DNA of 37,451 nucleotides from Janibacter anophelis NBRC 107843 (GTDB lineage Bacteria; Actinomycetota; Actinomycetes; Actinomycetales; Dermatophilaceae). The stretch covers positions 1-37,451 of the forward strand of contig NZ_BCSQ01000032.1 of assembly GCF_001570945.1 (NCBI RefSeq), in the 5' to 3' direction. The notes below the pieces were generated by a model. That model was not told where the DNA came from. It made no database searches and saw nothing but the letters and a program-made list of their open reading frames with translations. Below, one piece after another: positions 4,389 to 15,262 of the stretch (the stretch's first letter is position 1; every line of letters starts with the position of its first letter). The position numbers and the translations under genes are program-made.

Positions 4389-4625
4389 ATGACATTCGAG
4401 ACGCATGACTTCGGCTCCGACGTCGAGACCCGACTGAGCGAGGTGGCGCGCAATCACGGTCGCACGATGGAGGCCGAGGCCGCCATCATCCTCACCGCGA
4501 TCACCCAGGGGCACGCGCAGGAGCCTGATGCCGTGATGAGCCTCTACGCGTCCGCGCGTCGGGTCGTGTCCAAGGAGGCGCTGGCCCCGCCGACGCAGGT
4601 CGACTTCTGTCCTGACCGGTACTGA
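4389..4625 (+). CDS. FitA/Arc-like ribbon-helix-helix protein, orphan antitoxin
   Basis: A 78-residue protein. The segment VETRLSEVARNHGRTMEAEAAIILTAI matches the FitA/Arc antitoxin pattern in which a short strand is followed by a helix with an NGRSMEEEAR-like turn. The ATG at 4389 is chosen because GGAAGG at 4373-4378 precedes it at a usable distance and homology starts right there; the open frame upstream is non-coding in appearance. As with the two other small antitoxins in this region, the partner toxin is not present downstream. The next recognisable gene is a 2H phosphoesterase. Confidence 0.6.
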   Translation: MTFETHDFGSDVETRLSEVARNHGRTMEAEAAIILTAITQGHAQEPDAVMSLYASARRVVSKEALAPPTQVDFCPDRY

Positions 4626-4683
4626 TCTCGCGCTCTTGTACGACACCCCATGGCGCCTTACGTTGATGTAAGGAGGTAGGGAG

Positions 4684-4746
4684 ATGTCTGTCGGGACGCA
4701 GTTCCCACGGCTGGCGCTCCGAGTCGAACCATGCCGCCATGGCTAG
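4684..4746 (+). CDS. 20-codon leader ORF overlapping the 2H phosphoesterase start
   Basis: ATG 4684 is preceded by a very strong Shine-Dalgarno (AAGGAGG at 4670-4676) and encodes MSVGTQFPRLALRVEPCRHG before TAG 4744-4746. The stop lies three bases past the ATG of the next gene (4739-4741). That gene has no ribosome-binding site of its own, so translation is probably coupled through this short ORF. The peptide itself may have no function. Confidence 0.45.
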   Translation: MSVGTQFPRLALRVEPCRHG

Positions 4747-5260
4747 CAGTCGCAGTGCTCTGGTCGTCCTGGTCGGGGAGGCCGAGCCCGCAGTAGGCGA
4801 GTTGCGGCATGAACTCGATCCTGTCGCACAGCTCGGCGTTCCCGCTCACGTAACCGTCCTCTTCCCGTTCACGCCGTCCGAAGAGATCACCCACGACGTC
4901 CTGCTCAGGCTCGCCACCTTGTTTCGAACCGTGCCGACCTTTCAGCACTCGTTCGTGCGTACCGAGTGGTTCGGCAACGACGTGCTGTGGCTCGCTTCGG
5001 ACGCGGAGGCCGCCTTCAGATCCCTGACCGGAATGGTTGCCGACGCCTTCCCGAACCACCCGCCCTACGAGGGGCAATTCGACGATGTCGTCCCGCACCT
5101 GACGATTGCTGATCGCGGGCGAATGGATGCGATGCGAGCTGCAGAGCGAAAGGTGCAGCCTCATCTGCCCATCCACGCGATCACGCGGGCGGTCACCCTG
5201 TTGGTGGAACAACCCTCGGGTCGGTGGGAGACCGCTGAATCCTTTGCTCTCGCCGACTGA
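4739..5260 (+). CDS. 2H phosphoesterase (LigT / 2'-5' RNA ligase family)
   Basis: A 173-residue protein with both hallmark HxT motifs: HVTVLFPF at residues 37-44 and HLTIAD at 120-125, set about 80 residues apart as in 2H phosphoesterases. These enzymes open 2',3'-cyclic nucleotides or cyclic phosphates, or ligate or cleave 2'-5' RNA linkages, in the cytoplasm; the exact substrate varies and cannot be deduced. Base composition is less GC-biased than in the core genes of the window. It follows the short leader ORF with which its start overlaps. Neighbouring genes are orphan antitoxins on one side and a GNAT acetyltransferase on the other, consistent with an accessory region. Confidence 0.8.
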   Translation: MASSRSALVVLVGEAEPAVGELRHELDPVAQLGVPAHVTVLFPFTPSEEITHDVLLRLATLFRTVPTFQHSFVRTEWFGNDVLWLASDAEAAFRSLTGMVADAFPNHPPYEGQFDDVVPHLTIADRGRMDAMRAAERKVQPHLPIHAITRAVTLLVEQPSGRWETAESFALAD

Positions 5261-5510
5261 TCGCTCAACCTGTGAACGACTCCGGTTCTCGTCCTGATGG
5301 CCGCAAGATCCCGCCGCAGACACCGGCTCCTCGTCTCCAGAAGGGAGCACTTGCATCTACTGCTACGCCCGCTAGTTAGCTGGCGAAGCGTCATGTAGAT
5401 GAGCGACGAGTCGAGGGCCGTCCGCGATGGGGCGAGGCTTCTCAAATGGCTGGGGCGAGTGGGGAGTGGAGCGCCCGCATCTGGACAAGCGAATGCGCGT
5501 ATCCGTGTGG
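5261..5510. other. 250-bp spacer without a convincing gene
   Basis: It lies between the convergent 2H phosphoesterase and GNAT genes. No ORF with plausible codon use, no tRNA-like cloverleaf and no strong hairpin were seen. Composition is lower in GC than in the core regions. Confidence 0.5.
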
Positions 5511-6083
5511 CTAGTCGGTATCCGGATGCGTGAATGCGCGGCAAGGAGTGCCATCAAAGTCTTCTTGCCCCGCCTCGTCGAAGCCGACCTTCTCCAGCAC
5601 TCTGGCGCTCGCGTCGTTACCAACGGCGACGATGGCTCGGAGCGGAACGGCAATTGTGTGCGACAAGTGCCAGCCCACGAGGGCTTCGGCGATTTCAGTG
5701 GCAAGCCCGAGTCCCCAACGGCTTCGGCGGATGAGGTAGCTCATTCCACGGATCTCGGGCGTTCCACCGAAGCCTGCCCTACCCACCAATTGGCCATCGA
5801 GGTCCGCCAGGCGCCACTTGGTCCACCCCCGGGCGGCATGCTCGGCCATGTACTGATCGACCAGTAGTTCAACCTCCCGGCGCGATTCAGGACGTCCATG
5901 GCGGACGAATTCCATCGTCTCTGGATCGGAGTGCACCTCGTGCAACGACTGAACGTCGTCGACTAGCCATGAGGTCAGGATCAATCTCGGCGTCCTCAGG
6001 ACGACTTCGCGCTGGACATCGATCGCGCTGGTCTCATTCCCCACAATGCCATAATTGCAGGACGTGAGCCTGTGATCGCGCAT
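5511..6083 (-). CDS. GNAT-family N-acetyltransferase (RimJ/RimL-like)
   Basis: About 190 residues. LRTPRLILTSWLVDDVQSLHEVHSDPETMEFV is the classic opening of the RimJ-like GNAT subgroup. GRAGFGGTPEIRGMSYLIRRSRWGLGLATEIAEALV contains the acetyl-CoA-binding loop and following helix, and VAVGNDASARVLEKVGF is the conserved N-x-x-S-x-x-V-L-E-K-x-G-F motif. Such enzymes acetylate protein N-termini, small amines or antibiotics. The ATG at 6083 gives a 15-residue extension before the fold; a GTG at 6044 is the alternative. Neither has a good Shine-Dalgarno. It lies just outside the 3' end of recombinase module 1 and is a plausible cargo gene. Confidence 0.85.
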   Translation of the reverse strand: MRDHRLTSCNYGIVGNETSAIDVQREVVLRTPRLILTSWLVDDVQSLHEVHSDPETMEFVRHGRPESRREVELLVDQYMAEHAARGWTKWRLADLDGQLVGRAGFGGTPEIRGMSYLIRRSRWGLGLATEIAEALVGWHLSHTIAVPLRAIVAVGNDASARVLEKVGFDEAGQEDFDGTPCRAFTHPDTD

Positions 6084-6216
6084 CGTCACGATCCGGCGAG
6101 GCCTAATCGGCGGCCGGCTAGCTCCTCTGTTGCGAGCAGCGGCTCCGACCTGGGGAATTAACTCGCGCGCTCTCAACTGCCCGCGTCGAAGCGCAGCGGA
6201 CGGAGATGCTGAACGA

Positions 6217-7686
6217 TCAGCCACGAGCGTCGTCGAGCCTGGCTTTGATGTAGCTGGCGTAGTTGGCTGCTGAGCCTCTTGCATGTAGTTCGATCGTGGC
6301 GGGGGAGTAGCCCAGGAATTCGGCGATGATGGCGGTTGGCCCGAGCTTGGTGAGTTCATGGAGGGTGCCCAAGCGCGCGGCCCGGGCGCCGACCGTGGTG
6401 CGCAATCGACCGGCGATGTAGCCGGGGTCAAGGTGTCTGCCGGGGGAGTAGCCAGGGAAGACCCAGTTGCTGTCTGGGTGGGCGGCGGTCTGGTGGTTGT
6501 CCGGCTCGGCAGCGAGCTGGCGGAAGGGTTCGTCGATGGGCGAGGGCAGTTCGATGTCAGCCGTTCCACCGAGTCGGATGGTCACCAGGTCGTCGGCGAT
6601 GGTGACGTCGTCCCAGGTCAGGGCCAGGAGCCGCTCGAGTGGTTGGCCGAAGACGAGGAGAAGGATCGCGATGGCGCGGTGACGGACGGGCATCCTCGCG
6701 CTGTGGACGTGCTCGTCGATCGCCTGGGTCTGCGCTTGCGCGTCGAGCTTCGGGCTCGTGCCGCGACGATGAGGGGTGAGCCGGAGGTCCGGATGGACGA
6801 GCCGGGACTTGATCGCCCACCCGAGGAACCTGCTTGCGATTCCTCGGGTCGTGGGCCCGCTGGCTTGCCATTCGTCCAGGTCGGATTGGCCGAGGTTTTC
6901 GAGGAGCACTCCTCGTGCGCGCAGCCAGCTGAGGAAGTCGATGGCGACGGTGACGGTCTGTTTCGATCGGAGGAAGGTGCCGCGGCTGGTGGCTCCTTCT
7001 TCGTTCATGCGGCGCAGGATGTGCCAGCGGATGAAGCGGGTGATGACGTCCCGGTCGTCGGAATGGTCCAGGCGATCGATGGCTCGTGGGGTCCATTCGT
7101 TGAAGCGGTCGCGGTAGAGGTCGTTGCGTGGGATTGCGCCGTGCTCGACGAGGAGGCCGCGGACGTAGTCCCGCGTTCGCGATGGTGGGAGAGTGTCCAG
7201 GAGTTCGTGCGTGACGACGCTGTGGCCGCGCAACTGCTCGAAGAACTCGCGGACGTGGCCCTGTTTGATCCAAGTCAGCCCGCTGTTGGCGCGCTTCATG
7301 TTCTTCATTGCTTCGCTGATCGCGACCAGTTCCGGCGCGATTTTGCCGGTGCCTGGATCGGTGAGCAGGTTGTCGACGACCAGGTTGAGTTCGCAGTGCA
7401 AGCAGCGGCCAGCGCGGTAGAGCTCGGCTTCGGCACCACAGCTGACGCAGTCGATGTTGAGCCTGACACCAGAGCAACTGCGGCAAGCAGGATGCCCGTC
7501 GATCCTTCCAGGAAGAACGCCCGTGTGTCCGCACCGGCAGGTGCCACGTTCGCGCTTGGCGGCCTGGTAGCAGTAGCCGCAGATCCGCCCGTCGGGCCAG
7601 CGTGCGACGAGCTGGTAGTGCTGGTTGCAGCGCGCGCAGGGATTCGGCCAGGCGGCTGGGTCGCCTGGCTTCTTGGGCCGTGCCAT
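6217..7686 (-). CDS. Zinc-ribbon protein with degenerate tyrosine-recombinase core (module 1)
   Basis: A 489-residue protein. The N-terminus has six cysteine pairs (C17/C20, C36/C39, C50/C52, C68/C71, C80/C83, C95/C98), enough for three four-cysteine zinc sites. A helical middle part resembles a core-binding domain (FLSWLRARGVLLENLGQSDLDEWQ, residues 251-273). The C-terminus follows a tyrosine-recombinase catalytic fold: ILLLVFGQPLERLLALTWDD (341-360) stands where G-x-R-x-x-E-L is expected, and AEFLGYSPATIELHAR (455-470) where L-G-H and the Tyr would be. The catalytic Arg, the second Arg, the His and the nucleophilic Tyr are not conserved, so this is probably a structural or DNA-binding partner of the active recombinase. 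The ATG at 7686 overlaps the HTH gene stop (TGATG), giving coupled translation. The open frame further upstream is a shadow. Confidence 0.7.
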   Translation of the reverse strand: MARPKKPGDPAAWPNPCARCNQHYQLVARWPDGRICGYCYQAAKRERGTCRCGHTGVLPGRIDGHPACRSCSGVRLNIDCVSCGAEAELYRAGRCLHCELNLVVDNLLTDPGTGKIAPELVAISEAMKNMKRANSGLTWIKQGHVREFFEQLRGHSVVTHELLDTLPPSRTRDYVRGLLVEHGAIPRNDLYRDRFNEWTPRAIDRLDHSDDRDVITRFIRWHILRRMNEEGATSRGTFLRSKQTVTVAIDFLSWLRARGVLLENLGQSDLDEWQASGPTTRGIASRFLGWAIKSRLVHPDLRLTPHRRGTSPKLDAQAQTQAIDEHVHSARMPVRHRAIAILLLVFGQPLERLLALTWDDVTIADDLVTIRLGGTADIELPSPIDEPFRQLAAEPDNHQTAAHPDSNWVFPGYSPGRHLDPGYIAGRLRTTVGARAARLGTLHELTKLGPTAIIAEFLGYSPATIELHARGSAANYASYIKARLDDARG

Positions 7687-8039
7687 CAGCTGTCGGGCTC
7701 CTCGGGGACGACCCGGACCCGGCGGGCAATGGGGCTGCCGGGCTTGATGCCGAGGTCTTCTGGCCGTTTGGGGGCGTTGGCTGTCGCGGCGGCACGCATT
7801 TCCACGTAGGGCTCGAAGAGGTCGTTGGGGGTGCAGTCCAAGATGTCGCACAGCGCCGCGAAGGTCCGCGCGGGGATGCGTTCGGGGGGTTGGGTAACGA
7901 GCCGGTGCACCTGGGCATTCGACAGGTTGACGCCGCGGGACTTGAGCAGCGGAACCAGCTCGGTCGTCTTCCAGAGGTTGTGTTCGGCCATCACCTGACG
8001 CAGTCGCCAGTGATAGCTCACTCGTCGTTGTTCAGCCAA
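7686..8039 (-). CDS. XRE/Cro-type HTH protein (module 1)
   Basis: A 117-residue protein. A Cro/C1-like domain fills residues 8-75: WRLRQVMAEHNLWKTTELVPLLKSRGVNLSNAQVHRLVTQPPERIPARTFAALCDILDCTPNDLFE, in which LSNAQVHRLV is the recognition helix and the final segment is the usual CDIL-x-C-x-P-x-DLFE ending. The tail is basic and proline-rich. The start is TTG 8039, overlapping the recombinase stop by 8 bases, with AAGGACGG upstream. The aligned paralogue in module 2 starts at nearly the same place, supporting this choice. It probably acts as regulator of the module or as a directionality/accessory factor like excisionases or TnpC of Tn554; this is inferred from context. Confidence 0.75.
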   Translation of the reverse strand: MAEQRRVSYHWRLRQVMAEHNLWKTTELVPLLKSRGVNLSNAQVHRLVTQPPERIPARTFAALCDILDCTPNDLFEPYVEMRAAATANAPKRPEDLGIKPGSPIARRVRVVPEEPDS

Positions 8040-9192
8040 CGTGGTCGCCGTCCTTCTGGTCGAGTTGTAGGCGCCGGGTGATCATCTGCTGAATGGTCTT
8101 CTGCTTGAAGTCCGAGGAGACCGACGTGTAGAGCGAGGTTGTCGAGGAGTGCTGGTGGCCGACCTGCTGCTGGACGAAGAACGGGTCGTAGTCGGCTTCG
8201 ATCAAGTGGGTCACGTAGGAATGCCTTAGGCAGTGGAGCGTGAGTTCATCGGGGAGGCCAGCCTGCTGACGGGCCCGTGCAAACGCGCGTTCGAAGGTTC
8301 GCAGGCTGGTAGCGCCGGCGCGCTCAGACGGCCACAGGGACCTGGACCGGTCCGCGGTGGCGAACAGCTCGCGGCCCGCGGGGGAGATCCAGTGCTTGAG
8401 CAGATCGACCACCCAGTCGAACTCCGGGACCGTCAGCACGGTGCGCCGCCGCGGCCCGGACCCCTTCATGCCCTTGGCCCAGCGGACCTGCATGGCGCCG
8501 AAGTTCCCGTAGTCCGGAACCTTTGGGTTGGGGCCGAAGTCGACGTACTCGAGCCGAGTGAGCTCGCGTCGTCGCAGACCGTAGGCATAGGCCACCTTGA
8601 GCGCGGTCGAATCACGAAGGGCGGGGAGCCAGCGCTTGGAGCCCTTGGCGTACTCGCTGTCGACGAAGTCATCAGCGGCGTCGAACAGGCTCTGCATCTC
8701 GTTGAGAGTCAGAGCGCGCCGTCCCGTTGGTACGTCGTCGTCGGTGCTGTGACGAGGACTGTTCCAGTCGAAGACGATCTGTGCCGGGATGTCGTTGAAG
8801 ACGCGCTCGCAGAACCCAACCCAGCCGTATCTCGTGTCGCTGACGTAACTCGTGAACGCTCGGATGGCCGTGGTGTAGGACCGCAGTGTCGAGATCTTGA
8901 GAGGGCGCTCGCCGGAGCGAAGGTCGGCGAGGAACTCCTCGAAGTGGTGCGGGCGCCAGGTCCATGGGTACTCGTTGGCGTGCTCCTGGAACCTCGTGAC
9001 CACGCGGCACGACGTCTTGATGTGTGCCGTTGTCAGCCCACGCGCCAGCTGCTGCGTGCGCCAGCGATCCAGCATCGCTTCGAAGACGCGGTCATCCGCA
9101 CGCAGGAGCCCGACGGAGTCGTCGAGCAGATGGTCAGGGATCCGTCCAGGAACAAGCTCCACAAGCACAGACAATACGCGAGAATCTCGCAT
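8032..9192 (-). CDS. Tyrosine-type site-specific recombinase (module 1)
   Basis: A 386-residue integrase-family recombinase. The N-terminal core-binding domain covers roughly residues 35-150 (TLRSYTTAIRAFTSYV), followed by the catalytic domain. The catalytic set is complete: Arg207 in YGLRRREL, a beta-hairpin Lys (240 or 243), His320 and Arg323 in HCLRHSYVTHL, His346 in VGHQH, and the nucleophile Tyr355 in TSLYTSV. It should therefore be able to cut and rejoin DNA through a 3'-phosphotyrosine intermediate. The ATG at 9192 is preferred because the paralogue begins at the equivalent point; a GTG at 9228 is an alternative. The start codon lies within a palindrome (GCGAGA-A-TCTCGC, 9178-9190), which could be an operator. 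Confidence 0.88.
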   Translation of the reverse strand: MRDSRVLSVLVELVPGRIPDHLLDDSVGLLRADDRVFEAMLDRWRTQQLARGLTTAHIKTSCRVVTRFQEHANEYPWTWRPHHFEEFLADLRSGERPLKISTLRSYTTAIRAFTSYVSDTRYGWVGFCERVFNDIPAQIVFDWNSPRHSTDDDVPTGRRALTLNEMQSLFDAADDFVDSEYAKGSKRWLPALRDSTALKVAYAYGLRRRELTRLEYVDFGPNPKVPDYGNFGAMQVRWAKGMKGSGPRRRTVLTVPEFDWVVDLLKHWISPAGRELFATADRSRSLWPSERAGATSLRTFERAFARARQQAGLPDELTLHCLRHSYVTHLIEADYDPFFVQQQVGHQHSSTTSLYTSVSSDFKQKTIQQMITRRLQLDQKDGDHVG

Positions 9193-9634
9193 TAAATGAG
9201 AGCAACCCGCATTGAGCAGCGCAAACACCCCAGCGATGCAGCCGCAGCACTGACGAACTCACCCCATGGAAACCGCGTCTGACCAGCAGAAACCCCGCAA
9301 TTCCAATGTGCGACGAGTTCTCTCATCTGTTTCGACTCGTCGGACTTTAACGCCGATAATCCACATTATGTCATTTTTTAGTCTGCGTATTGCATCGGAT
9401 GAATCAATCGCGGGCGGCTGACCCACTGCCCCGCGGGCCGGACTGAACCCAGCTCTGACCAGCGGAAACGCAGCACCGAGCGTCGTCGTAACGGCGTCAA
9501 ACCGTGCGTGGCGGCGGAAGAATCAGGCGTTGCGCGGCCACCGCGACACGCCGTTAACCTGCGCAAACACGGATGGCGTCTCATCGGATGCATCATGGAA
9601 TCACTGGATGAAACCAGATTCTCGGGAGGATTCG
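9193..9634. promoter_or_regulatory. Spacer between the two recombinase modules
   Basis: This 442-bp non-coding stretch is lower in GC than its surroundings. It contains an inverted repeat at 9311-9342, two near-copies of TCTGACCAGCRGAAAC (9278-9293 and 9454-9469), two exact GCGCAAACAC decamers (9219-9228 and 9561-9570), and TTAGT plus TGCGTATTGCATC (9378-9396), which recurs next to the module remnant at 14.3 kb. GGGAGGA at 9624-9630 is the ribosome-binding site of module 2. It must hold both divergent promoters and is the best candidate for recombinase binding sites. Confidence 0.55.
9311..9342. repeat. 8-bp perfect inverted repeat, 16-bp spacer
   Basis: CGACGAGT (9311-9318) is mirrored by ACTCGTCG (9335-9342) in the spacer between the modules. 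Two arms with a short central region is the general form of a tyrosine-recombinase core site or of an HTH-protein operator. Which, if either, is unknown. Confidence 0.5.
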
Positions 9635-10741
9635 ATGCAAGTTGATGGCTCCGGTCGGGTCCGCCTGGTCGAGTCGGTGCCGGTCCTCCGGCCCGACGAG
9701 CAGGTGCTCCAGAAGATGCTCGAGGGCTGGCGGAACCAGCAACTGTCACGCAACCTGCAGTTCGCGACCATCGACCAGCGGCTCCGGATGGTGGAGCGCT
9801 TCATGAGCCATGTCAATGAAGACCCGTGGAACTGGACGCCCGCGCACGTCGAGGAGTTTTCGGCGGACCTGCGCACCCACAAGCACGTTGCTCACTCGAC
9901 GCTGCGCGGCTACCACTCCGCGTTGCAGGCCTTCACCAGCTACATCAGCAACCCCGACTACGGGTTCGACGTCGTCTGCGAGCGGTTCTTCGGCACCCAC
10001 CCGGCGCAGGTGTTCTTCGACTGGAACACCGCTCCCCACGTCCAGGAGTACGACGGCCGCCCGAAGAAGCGTCCGTACACCCGTGAGGAGATCAGCGAGC
10101 TCTTTGACCACGCCGACGACGAGGTTGAACGAATCGGTAAGTCCGGCCGCAAGGGCTGGCAGGCCGCCTACCGGGACGCGGTCATGATGAAGGTCGCGTA
10201 CGGCTACGGGCTCCGGTTCAACGAGTTGAGGCACCTACAAACGGTCGACTTCGCTCGCAACCCCCACGCACGAGAGTTCGGCGCGTTCGGCGTCTGCAAG
10301 GTCCGCTACGGCAAAGCGAAACGGTCATCTCCGCACAAGCCCCGCAGCGTCCTCACCGTCTGGCGGTGGACACCCGGCATCATCGAGGATTGGCTCGCCA
10401 ACGGTCGCGGTGATCCCGGCACCTTGGACCTCTTCCCCAGCGAACGAGGCGGACTGGTCGTCGAGTCGACGCTCATCCGCCGGCTCCGGCGCTACCGCGA
10501 GGAGTTGGGGTTCTCCGATGGTCTCGATCTCCACTCCTTCCGTCGCTCGTACGCCACTCACCTCCTCGAGGCCGGTTGGGATCCACGGTTCGTCCAGGAC
10601 CAGATGGGTCATGAGCACGGGGCAACTACAGGCATCTATCACTTCGTCTCCGATGAGTTCCGGCGTTCCACGCTCAGGGCCGCTTTGGACCGTACGGTGA
10701 AGGAAGCTATGGCTCGGAAGACCGAGGACGGCACATCATGA
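9635..10741 (+). CDS. Tyrosine-type site-specific recombinase (module 2)
   Basis: A 368-residue paralogue of the module 1 recombinase, sharing blocks such as W-x-x-QQL, PAQ-x-x-FDWN, LKVAYAYGL/MKVAYGYGL and PSER-x-G. The core-binding domain is in residues 25-130 and the catalytic domain in 145-350. All catalytic positions are kept: Arg194 in YGLRFNEL, Lys227 or 229, His300 and Arg303 in HSFRRSYATHL, His326 in MGHEH, and Tyr335 in TGIYHFV. The ATG at 9635 has an excellent Shine-Dalgarno (GGGAGGA, 9624-9630), which fixes the start and argues against longer versions of the frame. Its stop overlaps the next ATG by four bases (ATGA). The gene looks intact and expressible. Confidence 0.9.
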   Translation: MQVDGSGRVRLVESVPVLRPDEQVLQKMLEGWRNQQLSRNLQFATIDQRLRMVERFMSHVNEDPWNWTPAHVEEFSADLRTHKHVAHSTLRGYHSALQAFTSYISNPDYGFDVVCERFFGTHPAQVFFDWNTAPHVQEYDGRPKKRPYTREEISELFDHADDEVERIGKSGRKGWQAAYRDAVMMKVAYGYGLRFNELRHLQTVDFARNPHAREFGAFGVCKVRYGKAKRSSPHKPRSVLTVWRWTPGIIEDWLANGRGDPGTLDLFPSERGGLVVESTLIRRLRRYREELGFSDGLDLHSFRRSYATHLLEAGWDPRFVQDQMGHEHGATTGIYHFVSDEFRRSTLRAALDRTVKEAMARKTEDGTS

Positions 10742-11070
10742 AGCGCAAAGTCGACTACACGTGGCGCCTGGCCGAGCTGATGGCCGCCCGTGGCCTGCAC
10801 AACACCACGGATCTCATTCCTCTGCTGGCCGAACGCGACATCAGTCTCTCTCGACCTCAGGTGTACCGGCTGGTGAACCAGCGGCCGGAGCGCGTCTCGC
10901 TGATGATGATCGCGGCGCTGTGCGACATCTTCGAGTGCGAGTCGACGGACCTGTTCACCACCACAGCGACCGATGCGCGCGTGCGCAAGACCGGCACCGC
11001 TTCCCCACCGAACGTCGTCTCCCTCGACCGCAGCGTGCGGCCGCGGCGCGCCAACATCCTCGACGAGTAG
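10738..11070 (+). CDS. XRE/Cro-type HTH protein (module 2)
   Basis: A 110-residue counterpart of the module 1 HTH protein. YTWRLAELMAARGLHNTTDLIPLLAERDISLSRPQVYRLVNQRPERVSLMMIAALCDIFECESTDLF aligns along its whole length with the other copy, including the recognition helix LSRPQVYRLV and the CDIF-x-C-x-x-x-DLF ending. The tail is again basic. ATG 10738 lies inside the recombinase stop (ATGA), so translation is coupled and the two products are made together. Strict conservation of this small gene between two diverged modules suggests that it is needed for recombination or its control. Confidence 0.78.
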   Translation: MKRKVDYTWRLAELMAARGLHNTTDLIPLLAERDISLSRPQVYRLVNQRPERVSLMMIAALCDIFECESTDLFTTTATDARVRKTGTASPPNVVSLDRSVRPRRANILDE

Positions 11071-11083
11071 CTCAGCAGCATCG

Positions 11084-12589
11084 ATGGATCCGAAGCCGAC
11101 CGGCCTCTCCCCTCGCTCGACAGTCCGGGGACGTCCTCGCGCGACGAGCACTCGCGAGGATCCCTGTGCTCGCTGCGGCCGGAACATCCCCCGACTCGCC
11201 GCCAACTGGCCAGAAGGTCGACTCTGCAACATCTGCTACTACGACGCCGTACACACGCGAGGGACCTGCCCGGAGTGCCACCAAGACCGGCTCCTGCCTG
11301 GCCTGCGCGCCGCCGACGGCCAGCCGATCTGCTCGACCTGCGCTGAGATCCCCGTCGACTTCCATTGCGAGCGCTGCGACGTCGAAGCAGCGCGCCATCG
11401 CGGACGGCTCTGCGTCCGTTGTGCTCTTCGTGACGACCTTCACGGGCTGCTCGGCGGCGTGCCAAGCGACCCCGCACTGCTCGGCCTGGTCGATGCTCTC
11501 TGCGCCTCGGACAGGCCCGAGTCGATCCTCGTCTGGAAGCGCTCAGCCAAGGTCCAAAAGCTGCTTCGCGGACTCGGTGACGGCACCATCGCTGCGTCGC
11601 ACGAGGGACTCGACTCCGTACCCGGCAAGCCGGCCGAGCATCTCCGGGCGCTCATGCAGCACCACAGTCTCCTCCCCCATCGTGACCCGTACCTGCCGCG
11701 CTTCGAGCAATGGATTGAAGGCAAGCTCGATGGGCTTCCCGATGAGGTACGCCAGCCGGTCCAGTACTTCGCCACGTGGCACCACCTGCGGCGCATCAGG
11801 GCCAAGGTCGGGGCTGGCGCAGCCACTCGCGGTCCAGTCCACTCCGCGAAGCAGGAGATCACCGAAACGGTGAAGTTCCTCGTGTGGCTCCACGAGACCT
11901 ACCAGCGCACAGCCGCGACCTGCACACAGCAGGATGTCGACGAGTGGCTCGCGACCGGACCGACGACCCACAGTGCGATCAGAACCTTCTTTGTCGTCGC
12001 GAGGAAGGCGCGCCTCAACACCACGGTCACGGTCCAGCACCGATCGGCGAAGTCCAGCCCGTCTCTGAGTCAGGACCAGCGGCTCGCCTGGATCCACGAG
12101 CTCCTGACTGGCACCAGCGAGTCGCTTCCCTACCGAGTCGCCGCAATGCTCCTGTTGCTCTACGCCCAACCGCTGGTCAAGGTCGTCACGTTCCGGACCA
12201 GCATCATCGACGACGGTGACAGCGGCATGAGCATCACACTCGGCTCGCACCCGACCGACGTCCCGGAGCCATTCGCGTCCCTACTGCGCGAACACCTCGC
12301 CGCTCGGCCGAACCTCCGCACGGGCGGCGGACCCGACAGCCCGTGGCTCTTTCCCAGCACGCTGGCCGGCCGGCACCTGCACCCCAACACCGTGATGGAC
12401 CGGCTCCGCGACCTGGGCGTCAACCTCCTCGCCGCCCGCAACCGCGCCATCGGCGAACTCGTCCTCGAATGCCCACCCTCCCTCGTCGCGGAAGCGCTCG
12501 GCTACAGCCCGCAGGTCGCGTTCCTGCACGCCGACAAGGCGGCCGAACCCTGGGCTCGCTACGCCGGGCGCTCCATCAAGTCGCCCTGA
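11084..12589 (+). CDS. Zinc-ribbon protein with degenerate tyrosine-recombinase core (module 2)
   Basis: A 501-residue paralogue of the module 1 protein. The same six cysteine pairs occur in the same order (C28/C31, C48/C51, C62/C65, C83/C86, C95/C98, C110/C113), then a helical middle part (VKFLVWLHETYQRTAATCTQQDVDEWLATGP), then a recombinase-like end. MLLLLYAQPLVKVVTF replaces the first Arg motif, and AEALGYSPQVAFLHADKAAEPWARYAGR replaces the L-G-H and Tyr region. As in module 1 the active-site residues are missing, and LGYS stands where LGHS/LGHK is usual. The ATG at 11084 lies 13 bases after the HTH stop without an obvious Shine-Dalgarno. Parallel loss of the same residues in both copies indicates a long-established non-catalytic role rather than decay. 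Confidence 0.7.
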   Translation: MDPKPTGLSPRSTVRGRPRATSTREDPCARCGRNIPRLAANWPEGRLCNICYYDAVHTRGTCPECHQDRLLPGLRAADGQPICSTCAEIPVDFHCERCDVEAARHRGRLCVRCALRDDLHGLLGGVPSDPALLGLVDALCASDRPESILVWKRSAKVQKLLRGLGDGTIAASHEGLDSVPGKPAEHLRALMQHHSLLPHRDPYLPRFEQWIEGKLDGLPDEVRQPVQYFATWHHLRRIRAKVGAGAATRGPVHSAKQEITETVKFLVWLHETYQRTAATCTQQDVDEWLATGPTTHSAIRTFFVVARKARLNTTVTVQHRSAKSSPSLSQDQRLAWIHELLTGTSESLPYRVAAMLLLLYAQPLVKVVTFRTSIIDDGDSGMSITLGSHPTDVPEPFASLLREHLAARPNLRTGGGPDSPWLFPSTLAGRHLHPNTVMDRLRDLGVNLLAARNRAIGELVLECPPSLVAEALGYSPQVAFLHADKAAEPWARYAGRSIKSP

Positions 12590-12625
12590 CCGTCCGTCCG
12601 CTCTTGCCGAGTGCGAGTGAGCGAG

Positions 12626-12660
12626 AGCGGGCTGGGCTGCGTGTCAAGCTGAAGCCCGCT
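12626..12660. terminator. Stem-loop after module 2
   Basis: AGCGGGCT (12626-12633) pairs with AGCCCGCT (12653-12660) across a 19-nt loop, 36 bp after the module 2 stop. There is no T-tract. The loop contains CTGCGTGTCAAG, which is the reverse complement, with one mismatch, of a 12-mer inside the 35-bp repeats at 14.25 and 15.23 kb. It could be a terminator or part of the element's right end. Confidence 0.4.
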
Positions 12661-12710
12661 GACGCGCGATGTGCTGTCACTTGCAGTTACCAGTGGCAGG
12701 GTGCTGTCCC

Positions 12711-13289
12711 ATGAATGAGGACGCCGCGAAGGCCAACCTGCACAGTTACCTCAAGCATGAGCGCGAGGCGATTCTCGCCAAACTCGACGGACTCTCTGAG
12801 TACGACATCCGTCGCCCACTGACCGTCACCGGGACCAACCTGTTGGGTCTGGTCAAGCACTTGGCGACTTGGGAGGCCAGGTACCTCGGCGAGGTCTTCG
12901 GCCGTCCCTTTCCTGAACCTCTGCCTCGGTGGGACGTCGAGGCAGAGCGACTCGCCGACATGTGGGCGACTGAGCACGAATCCCGCAGCGACATCGTCGA
13001 GCGCTACCGCCGAGTGTGGGACCACAGCGACGCGACTGTGAGCGATCTCCCCCTGGACGCCACCGGTCGCGTGAGCTGGTGGCAGGACGCCGAGGTGCCC
13101 CTGTTCAACATCCTCGTCCACCTGCTTGCCGAGACGAGTCGGCACGCCGGTCATGCCGACATCCTGCGCGAAGCGCTCGACGGAGCGGTGGGAACCGACG
13201 CGGAGGCCATGGCCCAGAAGCAGCACGACCCAGCCTTCTGGGCGGAGCGCCGCGACGAGATTGAGGCAGCCGCCAGGGCTGCGGAGTGA
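12711..13289 (+). CDS. DinB-family (DUF664) protein
   Basis: A 192-residue four-helix-bundle protein. LVKHLATWEARYLGEVFGRPFPEP contains the first metal-binding histidine (His50) and HLLAETSRHAGHADILRE the second and third (His145, His148), the DinB/YfiT triad. In Actinobacteria this superfamily includes mycothiol-dependent S-transferases and related detoxification enzymes that act on thiols and electrophiles; the substrate here is unknown. The ATG at 12711 is used because the protein's homology starts there; the longer frame upstream is non-coding in character. It sits directly behind recombinase module 2 and may be cargo. Confidence 0.82.
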   Translation: MNEDAAKANLHSYLKHEREAILAKLDGLSEYDIRRPLTVTGTNLLGLVKHLATWEARYLGEVFGRPFPEPLPRWDVEAERLADMWATEHESRSDIVERYRRVWDHSDATVSDLPLDATGRVSWWQDAEVPLFNILVHLLAETSRHAGHADILREALDGAVGTDAEAMAQKQHDPAFWAERRDEIEAAARAAE

Positions 13290-13413
13290 CCCCAGAATAC
13301 GAGCCGTGCGGCAGCAGGTCTCACCGTCACGAGCGCGCTCACGTGGCGCGATTGCAAGCGCGTTGGCCCTCCGCTCCTCGCCCTGCGCCCGGAACCGAGA
13401 TTCAGGGGCGAAC

Positions 13414-14142
13414 CTAGGCGACGGCCTCGAGGGCGAAGAAGAGGAACCCGATAAAACGGGTGGGGTCGGATTCGCTCGGCGGCAGCAGCTCAGGAGGCGT
13501 ATCGGGCGACACCGGCGGCTCGCTGATCGCCAAGATCCTAAAGCCTGCGGCGGTGAACGACTCCGACATCGCGCTCAGCGACCGATACCAGATCGTTAGT
13601 GTCGCGGAGACGCCGTCGAAGTCGTACTCCTCCTCGTTCGGCACGGTCGCGAAGTAGTTCACCTCCGGGTACATCACCGGCGGGATGACCGGGTGGTTGA
13701 CCACCACGACCAGCCGACCGCCGAGCTTCAGCACCCGGCGTAGCTCCAGCAGCGGCCGCGACCAGTCCTCGAGGTAGTGCAGCACGAGCACGGCCAACGC
13801 GTCGTCGAACGACTCCTCGTCGTACGGAAGCGACTGGGTCAGGTCGGCCACCTGCAGGTCGACCTCGTCTCCGAGCCGCTCCCGGGCGAGTCGGATCATC
13901 GCCGTGCTCGCGTCGAACCCGGCCACCCTCGCGCCCCGCTCCTTCAGGTCGGCGAGGAGCGGCCCGGACCCGCAGCCAGCGTCTAAGATCCGACGCCCGG
14001 CGACGTCACCGAGCAGGTCCAGGACCGCCGGCCGGGCGTACCACCTGTTGAACAGGCCGTTCTCGTTCGCCCTCGCGTACGCGTCGGCGAAGGCGTCGTA
14101 GTGGTCCGCTTGCTGCTCGGCAGTCCGCGTTTCGGAGGTCAT
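13414..14142 (-). CDS. Class I SAM-dependent methyltransferase
   Basis: A 242-residue protein with a Rossmann-type methyltransferase fold. Motif I is RILDAGCGSGPLL (residues 51-63), the acidic residue binding the SAM ribose is Asp77 in VAGFDAS, DDALAVLVLHYLEDW is the motif around beta-4, and RVLKLGGRLVVVVNHP is the post-motif region. It resembles UbiE/Methyltransf_11-type small-molecule methylases; the acceptor cannot be named. The ATG at 14142 precedes MTSETRTAEQQADHYDAFADAYA, the usual start of this subfamily, so the upstream extension of the frame is left out. It stands alone, convergent with the DinB gene. Confidence 0.85.
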   Translation of the reverse strand: MTSETRTAEQQADHYDAFADAYARANENGLFNRWYARPAVLDLLGDVAGRRILDAGCGSGPLLADLKERGARVAGFDASTAMIRLARERLGDEVDLQVADLTQSLPYDEESFDDALAVLVLHYLEDWSRPLLELRRVLKLGGRLVVVVNHPVIPPVMYPEVNYFATVPNEEEYDFDGVSATLTIWYRSLSAMSESFTAAGFRILAISEPPVSPDTPPELLPPSESDPTRFIGFLFFALEAVA

Positions 14143-14249
14143 GGCACGCCAGTGTGCCAGTACGGATGGCGCGGTCGGCGTGGACGAGCCGTTCCTACAC
14201 ATCGCCCCAACGACCGGGCCTGCCGTGTTGAGAGCGGATCGACCGATCG

Positions 14250-14284
14250 AATACGCCCGGGCTTGATACGCAGGCTGTCCAGTA
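14250..14284 (+). repeat. 35-bp direct repeat, left copy
   Basis: It begins AATACGCCCG and ends CTGTCCAGTA, with CTTGATACGCAG in the middle. It matches 15228-15262 at 32 of 35 positions. The inverse of its first seven bases, GCGTATT, follows at 14295-14301. It precedes the remnant of a third recombinase module and the nucleotidyltransferase gene. Confidence 0.75.
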
Positions 14285-14332
14285 TTAGTAGCTTGCGTAT
14301 TGCATCAGAGGGCGCGATCGTCGATACCTGAT

Positions 14333-14404
14333 GTGGTGCTGCGCGCCCTAGAAGCCGCCGAACTGTGGGCCCGTTACGCAGGCCGCGCAATCAGATCGCG
14401 CTGA
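14333..14404 (+). pseudogene. C-terminal remnant of a third zinc/pseudo-recombinase gene
   Basis: In frame to TGA 14402-14404 the DNA reads VVLRALEAAELWARYAGRAIRSR. The end of the intact module 2 protein reads KAAEPWARYAGRSIKSP. WARYAGR is identical and the stop lies at the equivalent position. Nothing of the rest of the gene, or of the other two genes, is present upstream; instead a spacer-like motif (TTAGT plus TGCGTATTGCATC) stands only 27 bp before it. This looks like an internally deleted module. Confidence 0.65.
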
Positions 14405-14431
14405 CGTCGAAGCGCCGCTGCCGATGGGCGG

Positions 14432-15157
14432 ATGTCCGAGAATGGCTGCATGGTCGACTTTCGGGCTCGAGCCCAACGCTTCGTCGAGGAACGCTTTCCG
14501 ATCGCCGAGGCCTCGTTCCTCGGCGGCAGTGCCGCGACTGGCCGCGCTACGGAGAGTTCCGATCTCGACATCTTGGTCGTCCTTCCAGAGCAGTGGAAAG
14601 CAGATTCGTTCGTCGAGACCACGGATTACGAAGGCCAGTTGGTCGAGGTCTTCGTCTACGGCCGCGATGCGCTACAGAGCTGGCTCATCAAGGGACGCGA
14701 AGGACGTCGACCTGTGCTCGACAAGTTGATCGGCGAAGGGATTGCACTCACCGGTGGACGAGCCGCTCGTGACCTGATCGACGGTTCTCGTCGGGTGCTC
14801 GATCACGGCCCGGCGGATCCGGACCCCGCGGAACTTGGCGTTCGGGCGTACAGCTTGTCCGCCGTGCTAGACGACTTGGTGGACGTCGCCGATCCCGGTG
14901 AACGCTTCACGCTCAAGGCAACGGTTTGGCGGGAAGCGGCCGAACTCGCCTTGTTGATTCGCAGACGGTGGCTCGGAACCGGCAAGTGGTTATTTCGCGA
15001 GCTATTGGTCGGGCCGGATGAGTTCGGCCTGGTGGCCTGGGCAGCGGGCAGCCACGATACGGATGACCTTCTGAAGGCTGGCCGGGCTGTCCTCGATGCG
15101 GCCGGTGGGCGCGTGCAAGCTGGCTTCCTTCGCGGAGTTCGTCCTCCCGGCCTATGA
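14432..15157 (+). CDS. Pol-beta-type nucleotidyltransferase, 3' end frameshifted
   Basis: A 241-residue product. The N-terminus holds the nucleotidyltransferase signature: GGSAATGRATESSDLDILVV with Gly31-Gly32-Ser33 and Asp44-x-Asp46, plus a third acidic residue in VEVFVYG (Glu72). A helical C-terminal domain follows. This is the minimal-NTase fold seen in antibiotic adenylyltransferases and in toxin/antitoxin NTases; the substrate is unknown. The last residues (AGFLRGVRPPGL) look wrong. From 15120 a different frame reads LASFAEFVLPAYDRYC, a convincing C-terminus, so one extra base near 15116-15121 has probably shifted the frame. The start could be ATG 14432 or 14450. The gene is bracketed by 35-bp direct repeats. 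Confidence 0.7.
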   Translation: MSENGCMVDFRARAQRFVEERFPIAEASFLGGSAATGRATESSDLDILVVLPEQWKADSFVETTDYEGQLVEVFVYGRDALQSWLIKGREGRRPVLDKLIGEGIALTGGRAARDLIDGSRRVLDHGPADPDPAELGVRAYSLSAVLDDLVDVADPGERFTLKATVWREAAELALLIRRRWLGTGKWLFRELLVGPDEFGLVAWAAGSHDTDDLLKAGRAVLDAAGGRVQAGFLRGVRPPGL

Positions 15158-15227
15158 CCGCTACTGCGGCCCTGCGGGTGTACGCAGCCCGCGCGCTCAT
15201 GCCGCGAATCGGACGTTGTCTGCCCTC

Positions 15228-15262
15228 AATACGCCCGAACTTGATACGCAGCCTGTCCAGTA
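15228..15262 (+). repeat. 35-bp direct repeat, right copy
   Basis: Second copy of the 14250-14284 repeat, differing at three positions (GG to AA, and G to C). It lies 70 bp after the annotated stop of the nucleotidyltransferase. The shifted reading frame of that gene stays open into this repeat and stops at TAG 15261-15263. Confidence 0.75.

Follow-up and report, generated by a model that had tools for sequence, protein, structure and literature searches.

Two very probably independent tyrosine-recombinase elements at the predicted chromosomal dif site of Janibacter anophelis NBRC 107843

The window analysed here is the whole 37,451-nt stretch from Janibacter anophelis NBRC 107843 (NZ_BCSQ01000032.1, positions 1-37,451; assembly GCF_001570945.1). 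It contains two divergent three-gene modules, each encoding a catalytic tyrosine recombinase (YR), a small helix-turn-helix protein (HTH) and a CxxC-rich pseudo-recombinase (ZN), with a predicted dif site between them. The two modules very probably belong to two independent site-specific elements of Actinomycetota, each moved by its own YR-HTH-ZN trio and both inserted at the chromosomal dif. The type-1 element (module 1) appears to be flush with the XerC arm and the type-2 element (module 2) with the XerD arm, each with its YR end at dif, and dif itself appears to be intact. The evidence, drawn from sequence comparison, comprises the trio as a unit, the element ends (that of type 1 distal to dif being provisional), the target, an empty site in a plasmid relative, an apparent recent transfer, a circular record, tandem copies and a passenger element. 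The features are as follows.

9349..9376, plus strand: predicted dif, with XerC arm AACGCCGATAA (9349-9359), centre TCCACA and XerD arm TTATGTCATTT (9366-9376)
5404..9348, minus strand: type-1 element on the XerC side of dif, YR1-HTH1-ZN1 plus GNAT cargo
9332-9342 and 5404-5414: type-1 ends, inverted repeat CGACGAGTCGA; the distal end is provisional
8032..9192, minus strand: YR1, catalytic tyrosine recombinase of module 1; reading frame open from 9228
7686..8039, minus strand: HTH1, Cro/C1-type (HTH_26, Pfam)
6217..7686, minus strand: ZN1, CxxC-rich pseudo-recombinase, assigned by sequence and profile comparison
5511..6050, minus strand: GNAT acetyltransferase (PF13302), cargo gene of the type-1 element
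9380..14280, plus strand: type-2 element on the XerD side of dif; L end AGTCTGCGTATTGCATC at 9380, R end TTGATACGCAGGCTGTCC at 14263-14280
9635..10741, plus strand: YR2, catalytic tyrosine recombinase of module 2; reading frame open from 9530, start picked by comparison
10738..11070, plus strand: HTH2, Cro/C1-type (HTH_26, Pfam)
11084..12589, plus strand: ZN2, CxxC-rich pseudo-recombinase, assigned by alignment of trios
12669..13289, plus strand: mycothiol-S-transferase/DinB_2 (PF04978), cargo gene of the type-2 element
13414..14142, minus strand: methyltransferase (PF08241), cargo gene of the type-2 element
14290..15258, plus strand: mini-element with type-2 ends and no recombinase genes; nucleotidyltransferase gene (NTP_transf_2) at 14432-15157

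Element ends in the window lie at about 5404, 9342, 9380, 14280, 14290 and 15258, and the G+C content of the islands is mostly below that of the rest of the window. The positions and gene order of the two trios, on the minus strand in module 1 and on the plus strand in module 2, are those given in an earlier note on this DNA, made from the sequence alone. That note also described overlapping starts and stops; overlaps are present at three of the four junctions (8, 1 and 4 bp), but HTH2 and ZN2 are separated by a 13-bp gap, and an overlap there requires a far upstream start of ZN2 (10973).

The site between the modules was absent from the earlier note. The pattern CGATAATNNACATTATGTCA, with at most one mismatch, is present in 54 of 58 genomes (the J. 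anophelis genome and its relatives) and is single in 53 of these 54; the single copy in the J. anophelis genome is at window 9354-9373. Only one centre base and the outermost bases differ from the predicted dif of Frankia alni (CACGCCGATAATGCACATTATGTCAAGT; PMC3025954), and, according to that paper, no actinobacterial dif had been experimentally confirmed at its date. Because of the sequence match and the single copy per genome, we infer that the window site acts as dif. A block 5' of both YR genes is common to relatives with differing flanks and matches dif, which places module 1 against the XerC arm and module 2 against the XerD arm. The 20-base dif core is identical in 12 same-genus genomes, and the dif stretches of these 12 genomes gave no trio match beside dif; dif therefore appears to be intact in the window. 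A conserved chromosomal anchor on the left (window 4625) lies 70 bp from dif in one same-genus genome (L067) and 4.7 kb from it in the window, and an anchor on the right (window 15723) lies 66 bp from dif in another (L073) and 6.3 kb from it in the window. The window appears to hold two insertions into a known chromosomal place. Two XerC/XerD-type proteins are also encoded by the host genome itself, both scoring above the curated NF001399 cut-off.

Signs of movement were found in plasmid relatives. In plasmid pA of Paenarthrobacter ureafaciens AT, a type-2 relative is present twice in tandem, immediately next to a dif-like site, and pD of the same strain is a 4712-bp circular record of the same element as each tandem copy. 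The uninterrupted site is present in the related plasmid pTC2 of P. aurescens, which represents an empty site for the pA element. An alignment with empty sites had been proposed in the earlier note as a way of defining the ends, and the pTC2 comparison does place the junction of the type-2 relative: the crossover falls on the outer edge of the XerD arm, and this one plasmid empty site shows no target duplication. An element is also found beside a dif-like site in pADNL1. On a plasmid of Paenarthrobacter sp. AT5 (L090, 5876-7875), the dif-like site of pA and a near-identical L end are followed by a CopG/Doc toxin-antitoxin pair and, after it, a site-specific integrase gene.

At dif, the type-2 junction consists of TTATGTCA, six variable bases and then AGNCTGCGTATTGC in the window, L021 and L025; variants occur in L018, L019, L026 and others, and other letters are found in L022, L106, L115 and L119. 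The distal end, TTGATACGCAGNNTGTCC, is present at window 14263 and 15241 and in L021 and L025, and with changes in L026, where it begins 66 bp past the ZN stop and gives a minimal type-2 element of ~3.25 kb. The same or similar ends were identified in L021, L025, L026, L087 and L091, the last being a 3673-bp contig that begins with the L end and finishes with the R end. Seven small contigs were tested as circles, and terminal overlap was found in none of the seven. A second L end (14293, one mismatch) and a second R end (15241) delimit the mini-element, and in the whole genome, at up to two mismatches, type-2 ends occur solely at the type-2 element and the mini-element. The mini-element (14290-15258) thus has the appearance of a passenger that lacks a recombinase and carries the nucleotidyltransferase gene as cargo. 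On the reverse strand of L115 (G314:C12), two dif-like sites (3028 and 3264) lie 236 bp apart, each followed by the L end CTGTTGCGAGTCG; this is possibly a truncated first insertion or an element with its own dif-like site.

For type 1, relatives in Phycicoccus elongatus Lp2 (L019) and in a Tetrasphaera metagenome-assembled genome (L020) share 5876 bp at 99.9% identity, stopping exactly at dif. Beyond dif the flanks are 68-76% identical where alignable, and the other flank is unalignable, a pattern that points to recent transfer. The shared element runs from dif to a matching inverted end, both ends containing the inverted repeat AACGGGAGTT. Its window counterpart is CGACGAGTCGA at 9332-9342 and 5404-5414; a BLAST self-similarity search for the distal end gave mostly chance matches, and the 11-bp CGACGAGTCGA alone was retained. 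To the right of dif in L019 (dif-oriented 11123 onward) there is a type-2-like L end, with no type-2 trio in the available stretch; the gene that follows it presumably encodes an antitoxin, to judge by family resemblance.

The three genes behave as one unit. YR, HTH and ZN occur in the same order on one strand in 40 of 40 further places, these being the best-scoring ones when G000 and G025 are excluded. The places are partly redundant, several genomes contributing two or three of them and the YRs being identical within three pairs, and partial or decayed copies fall outside the count because only the best-scoring places were taken. The pairwise distances of YR, HTH and ZN correlate across 60 trios (Mantel r 0.866, 0.869 and 0.866; none of 999 permutations as high), suggesting that the three proteins co-evolve. 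These data uphold the earlier view of a conserved recombination unit with a single active recombinase, and the frequent separation of the genes that would have spoken against it was not seen among the 40 best places; one exception found earlier, L023, has HTH and ZN and no YR. Three copies (L029, L034 and one in L021) are cut by contig ends, and L035 and L036 are fragments. A ZN homologue was detected in 13 of the 58 genomes, in 81 of 394 genomes of the class (E <=0.001, fragments included) and, at the stricter 1e-20, in 22 of 396 genomes of the phylum, 13 of the 22 being outside the class. Relatives of ZN2 are encoded on 242 of 72,556 plasmid records (109 from Streptomyces and 57 from Rhodococcus), and several of those listed are annotated as 'recombinase XerD'.

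Target choice appears to follow the phylogeny of the recombinase. A YR tree of 60 rows was built with quick IQ-TREE and SH-aLRT support, omitting L020 (near-identical to L019), L023, L029, L035, L036, L085, L088 and L090; for 9 of the 60 rows no insertion site was scored, and 24 are classed as 'other'. All six rows on the XerC side of dif fall into one clade (SH-aLRT 99). Those on the XerD side fall, with one exception among 13, into one clade of 16 (99), together with four rows of unseen site, and another clade (100) consists of seven of the eight rows whose insertion lies at the 3' end of a peptidase-like gene. This last gene we take to be peptidase-like from a recurring C-terminal motif and family resemblance rather than from a database match. 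The tree requires 5 target changes, compared with a mean of 23.8 in shuffles, near-copies adding to the clustering. Among the 40 trios, dif with at most one mismatch lies within 900 bp upstream of YR in seven (five on the XerD side and two on the XerC side; L125 and L130, with a 3-mismatch dif-like match, are excluded), and none of 1000 mononucleotide-shuffled 960-bp control windows contained dif at one mismatch.

Catalytic columns were scored in the alignment of 60 trios. YR1 and YR2 belong to PF00589 (1.1e-20 and 4.8e-21; Pfam) and resemble XerC, XerD and XerA. The complete R-K-H-R-H-Y active site read earlier in the first protein is borne out by the alignment: all 60 YRs have the R and the K, and 59 of them also H, R, H and Y, the remaining row being gapped. 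HTH1 and HTH2 match HTH_26 (7.8e-15 and 4.5e-13; Pfam). The two copies are well diverged, as had been stated (YR 43% and ZN 33% identical).

The third protein had been described as having six Cys pairs and a recombinase fold without the active residues. Six CxxC pairs are indeed present in ZN2 and kept in 52-59 of the 60 ZN rows, and the first Arg and the Tyr are missing, but the fold is only weakly recognisable and one Arg is perhaps kept. In the first-Arg column none of the 58 rows with a letter has Arg (P in 43), and in the Tyr column none of 58 has Tyr (W 31, H 24, L 2 and V 1), nor do the neighbouring columns; a ZN protein with an intact Tyr and Arg, which would have told against the earlier description, was thus seen in none of the 58 rows. 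One ZN Arg is conserved in 58 of 58 rows and may correspond to the second catalytic Arg. Kinship of ZN to recombinases is suggested by weak but consistent signals. ZN1 with its upstream extension matches PF00589 at 0.006 at best, and ZN2 has no Pfam match; the ZN profile matches XerD (E 0.0028), and ZN1 matches a PHROG integrase (4.3e-5). With a ZN fold model (pLDDT 67.4), the 19 best Foldseek matches were all tyrosine recombinases, with low TM-scores; a single-sequence fold of ZN2 (pLDDT 39.7) was left unused. In a profile comparison of ZN with YR using the 60-row alignments, the motif regions were in register. In other clades the ZN protein is longer (706-863 aa in L028, L032 and L033), with extra Cys-rich stretches N-terminally. 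A role as a defence system was discarded, none of the six proteins having a PADLOC match up to an E of 1, and so was a phage origin, ZN2 having no relative in 50,697 phage records and one IMG/VR scan confirming none.

The genes flanking the trios were also as reported in the earlier note (GNAT, DinB, here mycothiol-S-transferase/DinB_2, methyltransferase and nucleotidyltransferase), and a 2'-5' RNA ligase-like gene (4739-5260) is present besides, between the left chromosomal anchor and the type-1 element (region 4625-5395). Window 5345-5372 looks by eye like what a further type-1-like element would leave of its dif-side end after decay (cf. L022 to the left of dif), which suggests an older insertion that was pushed outward. 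About 2.5 kb to the right of dif in L074 (G012), a stretch is 88% identical to the type-2 methyltransferase gene of the window, with no adjoining trio and no recognisable type-2 ends in the available stretch. In L080 (G048), a ZN fragment ~1.1 kb from dif (at 7976) is perhaps the remnant of a decayed type-1-like element.

We propose that YR alone would cut and join DNA at the short spacer that separates the ends of the element from dif's outer edge, and that HTH and ZN would bind both these ends and the target and give the synapse its shape, with ZN as a presumed non-catalytic subunit in the manner of Tfp in SEs or GinC in GInts. It is plausible that ZN and HTH act in targeting or as architectural parts. 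Newcomers would insert next to dif and older elements would move outward, producing a cargo island at the replication terminus. The six-base variable spacer, the circular form and the dead recombinase recall SEs, and copy-out movement would fit an active recombinase with a dead partner. It is conceivable, if rather doubtful, that the trio is a minimal copy-out/copy-in machine that finds dif through host-bound XerC (type 1) or XerD (type 2), making dif a two-sided landing pad on which cargo would gather at the replication terminus. On such a mechanism, an active and a dead recombinase in one synapse would exchange only one strand, so that the element would be copied rather than cut out, and contact with host-bound XerC or XerD would explain the use of one side per clade and the survival of dif.

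Several observations weigh against two independent trio-driven insertions at dif. The distal end of the window type-1 element, defined by the 11-bp repeat, is the weakest boundary. The pD record falls 2 bp short of the 4714-bp repeat unit of pA and might have arisen from the tandem repeat during assembly. Movement is deduced from sequence comparison, none having been observed experimentally. As for ZN, its fold model is mediocre, the best PDB match (XerA) having E 1.4e-3 and TM 0.13 with none at E <=0.001, and the profile-profile comparison with YR gave no significant score. Finally, no dif at one mismatch was found in 33 of the 40 trios, although 8 of the 33 have <900 bp of upstream sequence; dif therefore serves as target for two clades plus one additional row, and not for the family at large.

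Other explanations of the locus were considered. The position of both modules against dif, which is intact in the junctions read, together with the likeness of the YRs to XerC, XerD and XerA and the plasmid members at dif-like sites, could indicate a dedicated dimer-resolution or terminus-maintenance system; in streptococci, XerS is genetically linked to its own site (PMC2731167). We consider this highly improbable and discarded it on the patchy occurrence of the trio and the two XerC/XerD-type genes already present in the host genome: a ZN homologue occurs in 13 of 58 relatives, compared with dif in 54 of 58, many trios lie elsewhere (e.g. the eight rows at the 3' end of the peptidase-like gene), and the L019/L020 element is common, as a whole, to unlike genomes. 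Entry by host XerCD in the manner of IMEX, with some other function for the trio, for example in regulation or excision, would account for insertion beside an Xer site and has precedents among IMEX (PMC9765430 and PMC5357621). It is nevertheless improbable, since other clades with the same trio use non-dif targets, the plasmid junctions lie at the outer arm edge rather than at the dif centre, and target tracks YR phylogeny, with the double dif-like site of L115 as an exception.

The earlier note had treated the pair as a possible unit, mobilising DNA on both sides or arising from one element nested in the other, and here its interpretation, supported for the conserved trio, was not supported. 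A composite unit of two modules moving together around dif could be argued from Nocardioides malaquae (L021), where the divergent pair recurs with 86.6% DNA identity across 5803 bp, and from L018, where a type-1 trio faces a type-2 L end across dif. Each type is, however, found at dif without the trio of the other within the available stretch (type 1 in L020, L094 and L120; type 2 in L022, L025 and L026), the two types have different ends and belong to different YR clades, and dif is present in genomes that have no module there. Composite and nested arrangements were accordingly rejected, and a jointly moving pair has only the slightest probability.

If two independent trio-driven insertions at dif are the correct explanation, the trios would add to the tyrosine-recombinase elements a widespread class in which one protein alone is catalytic, and dif of Actinomycetota would be a hotspot where elements supplying their own recombinase insert on either side. 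The trio would also offer a three-gene system for asking what the dead recombinase does in Tn554/SE-type transposition. Such elements, which spare dif on insertion, might be of use as tools for non-disruptive integration in high-GC actinobacteria.

Among known systems, SEs (IntA, Tfp, IntB and Srap) share with the trio elements a row of recombination genes and a small auxiliary protein, as well as imperfect inverted ends, a 6-bp spacer, a circular form and few specific targets, and their catalytically dead recombinase-fold protein (Tfp) may have its counterpart in ZN. PMC10214605 describes this anatomy (Tfp, spacer, circle and targets) and proposes one-strand exchange and copy-out movement; a strand-biased circle without an empty site is a further SE feature. 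SEs have two active recombinases in a four-gene core and are known mainly from Gammaproteobacteria, whereas 40 of 40 trios are YR-HTH-ZN with one active YR (an unrelated second recombinase nearby was not systematically searched for); Srap is replaced by an HTH_26 protein, the pseudo-recombinase contains six CxxC pairs, and dif is a target. Tfp and ZN are likened here by description: none of the 58 ZN rows with a letter there has the first Arg or the Tyr, and the second Arg is possibly retained. GInts (GinA, GinB, GinC and GinD) have a degenerate recombinase, GinC, and form site-specific islands with cargo. All four of their genes are required for recombination (PMC5385486; GinC is treated in PMC10214605 as well). 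The ginABCD operon encodes three integrase-type proteins plus GinD, in contrast to three genes with one catalytic product here; GinA and GinB both have the active-site motif, the targets named there are an ABC-transporter gene and ssb, and 'zinc' occurs 0 times in the main text of PMC5385486.

The earlier note had named Tn554 and RIT as the nearest known systems, with more active recombinases than the trio, and the trio indeed fits neither definition. Tn554 elements are tyrosine-recombinase transposons with TnpA, TnpB and TnpC, and related pairs or triplets, some in Actinobacteria, combine a long and a short recombinase (PMC3414803). TnpA and TnpB are both tyrosine recombinases with potential catalytic motifs, whereas ZN has no catalytic residues, a separation made by description. 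RIT elements resemble the trio in having three overlapping genes and several identical copies in some genomes, but all three RIT proteins are tyrosine recombinases with the catalytic motif; in the trio only one protein has it, the middle protein being HTH_26 and the third lacking the motif. The YRs also fall short of GmtY, the recombinase of the Gamma-mobile-trio (GMT) system: YR1 and YR2 score 19.2 and 17.8 bits against a GmtY cut-off of 340 in NCBIfam. Helicobacter has TnPZ elements with a XerT recombinase. The atypical circular element of Rhodococcus jostii, for which PMC12169178 reports no recombinase, was set aside as a different thing.

With respect to the target, elements of the IS1202 family (ISAjo2 group) code for the enzyme that moves them and enter, always in one orientation, next to dif and plasmid pdif sites, a clear precedent for dif as a target (PMC10132070). 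These are 1.5-kb insertion sequences with a DDE transposase and terminal repeats, located 5 bp from the XerC side and generating a 5-bp target duplication according to the same text, whereas the trio elements have a tyrosine recombinase, use the two sides of dif in different clades and show no target duplication at the one plasmid empty site. IMEX (CTXphi, GGI and LME-1) also integrate at dif, carrying a dif-like site and using host Xer recombinases (PMC9765430 and PMC5357621); the trio elements have their own recombinase, and no dif sequence is present in the distal ends read. In the open-access literature, among the matches listed and as far as titles and abstract beginnings tell, neither the trio nor recombinase-encoding elements flush with an actinobacterial dif are described, an absence that counts as weak evidence because the search covered open-access literature only. 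The searches made did not identify the loci with a named transposon family: SE, GInt, Tn554, RIT and IS1202 each differ from the trio elements in a defining feature, and the evidence tends to argue against IMEX. In anatomy the trio elements are closest to SE, GInt, Tn554 and RIT, and in their targeting of dif they are closest to IS1202 and IMEX.

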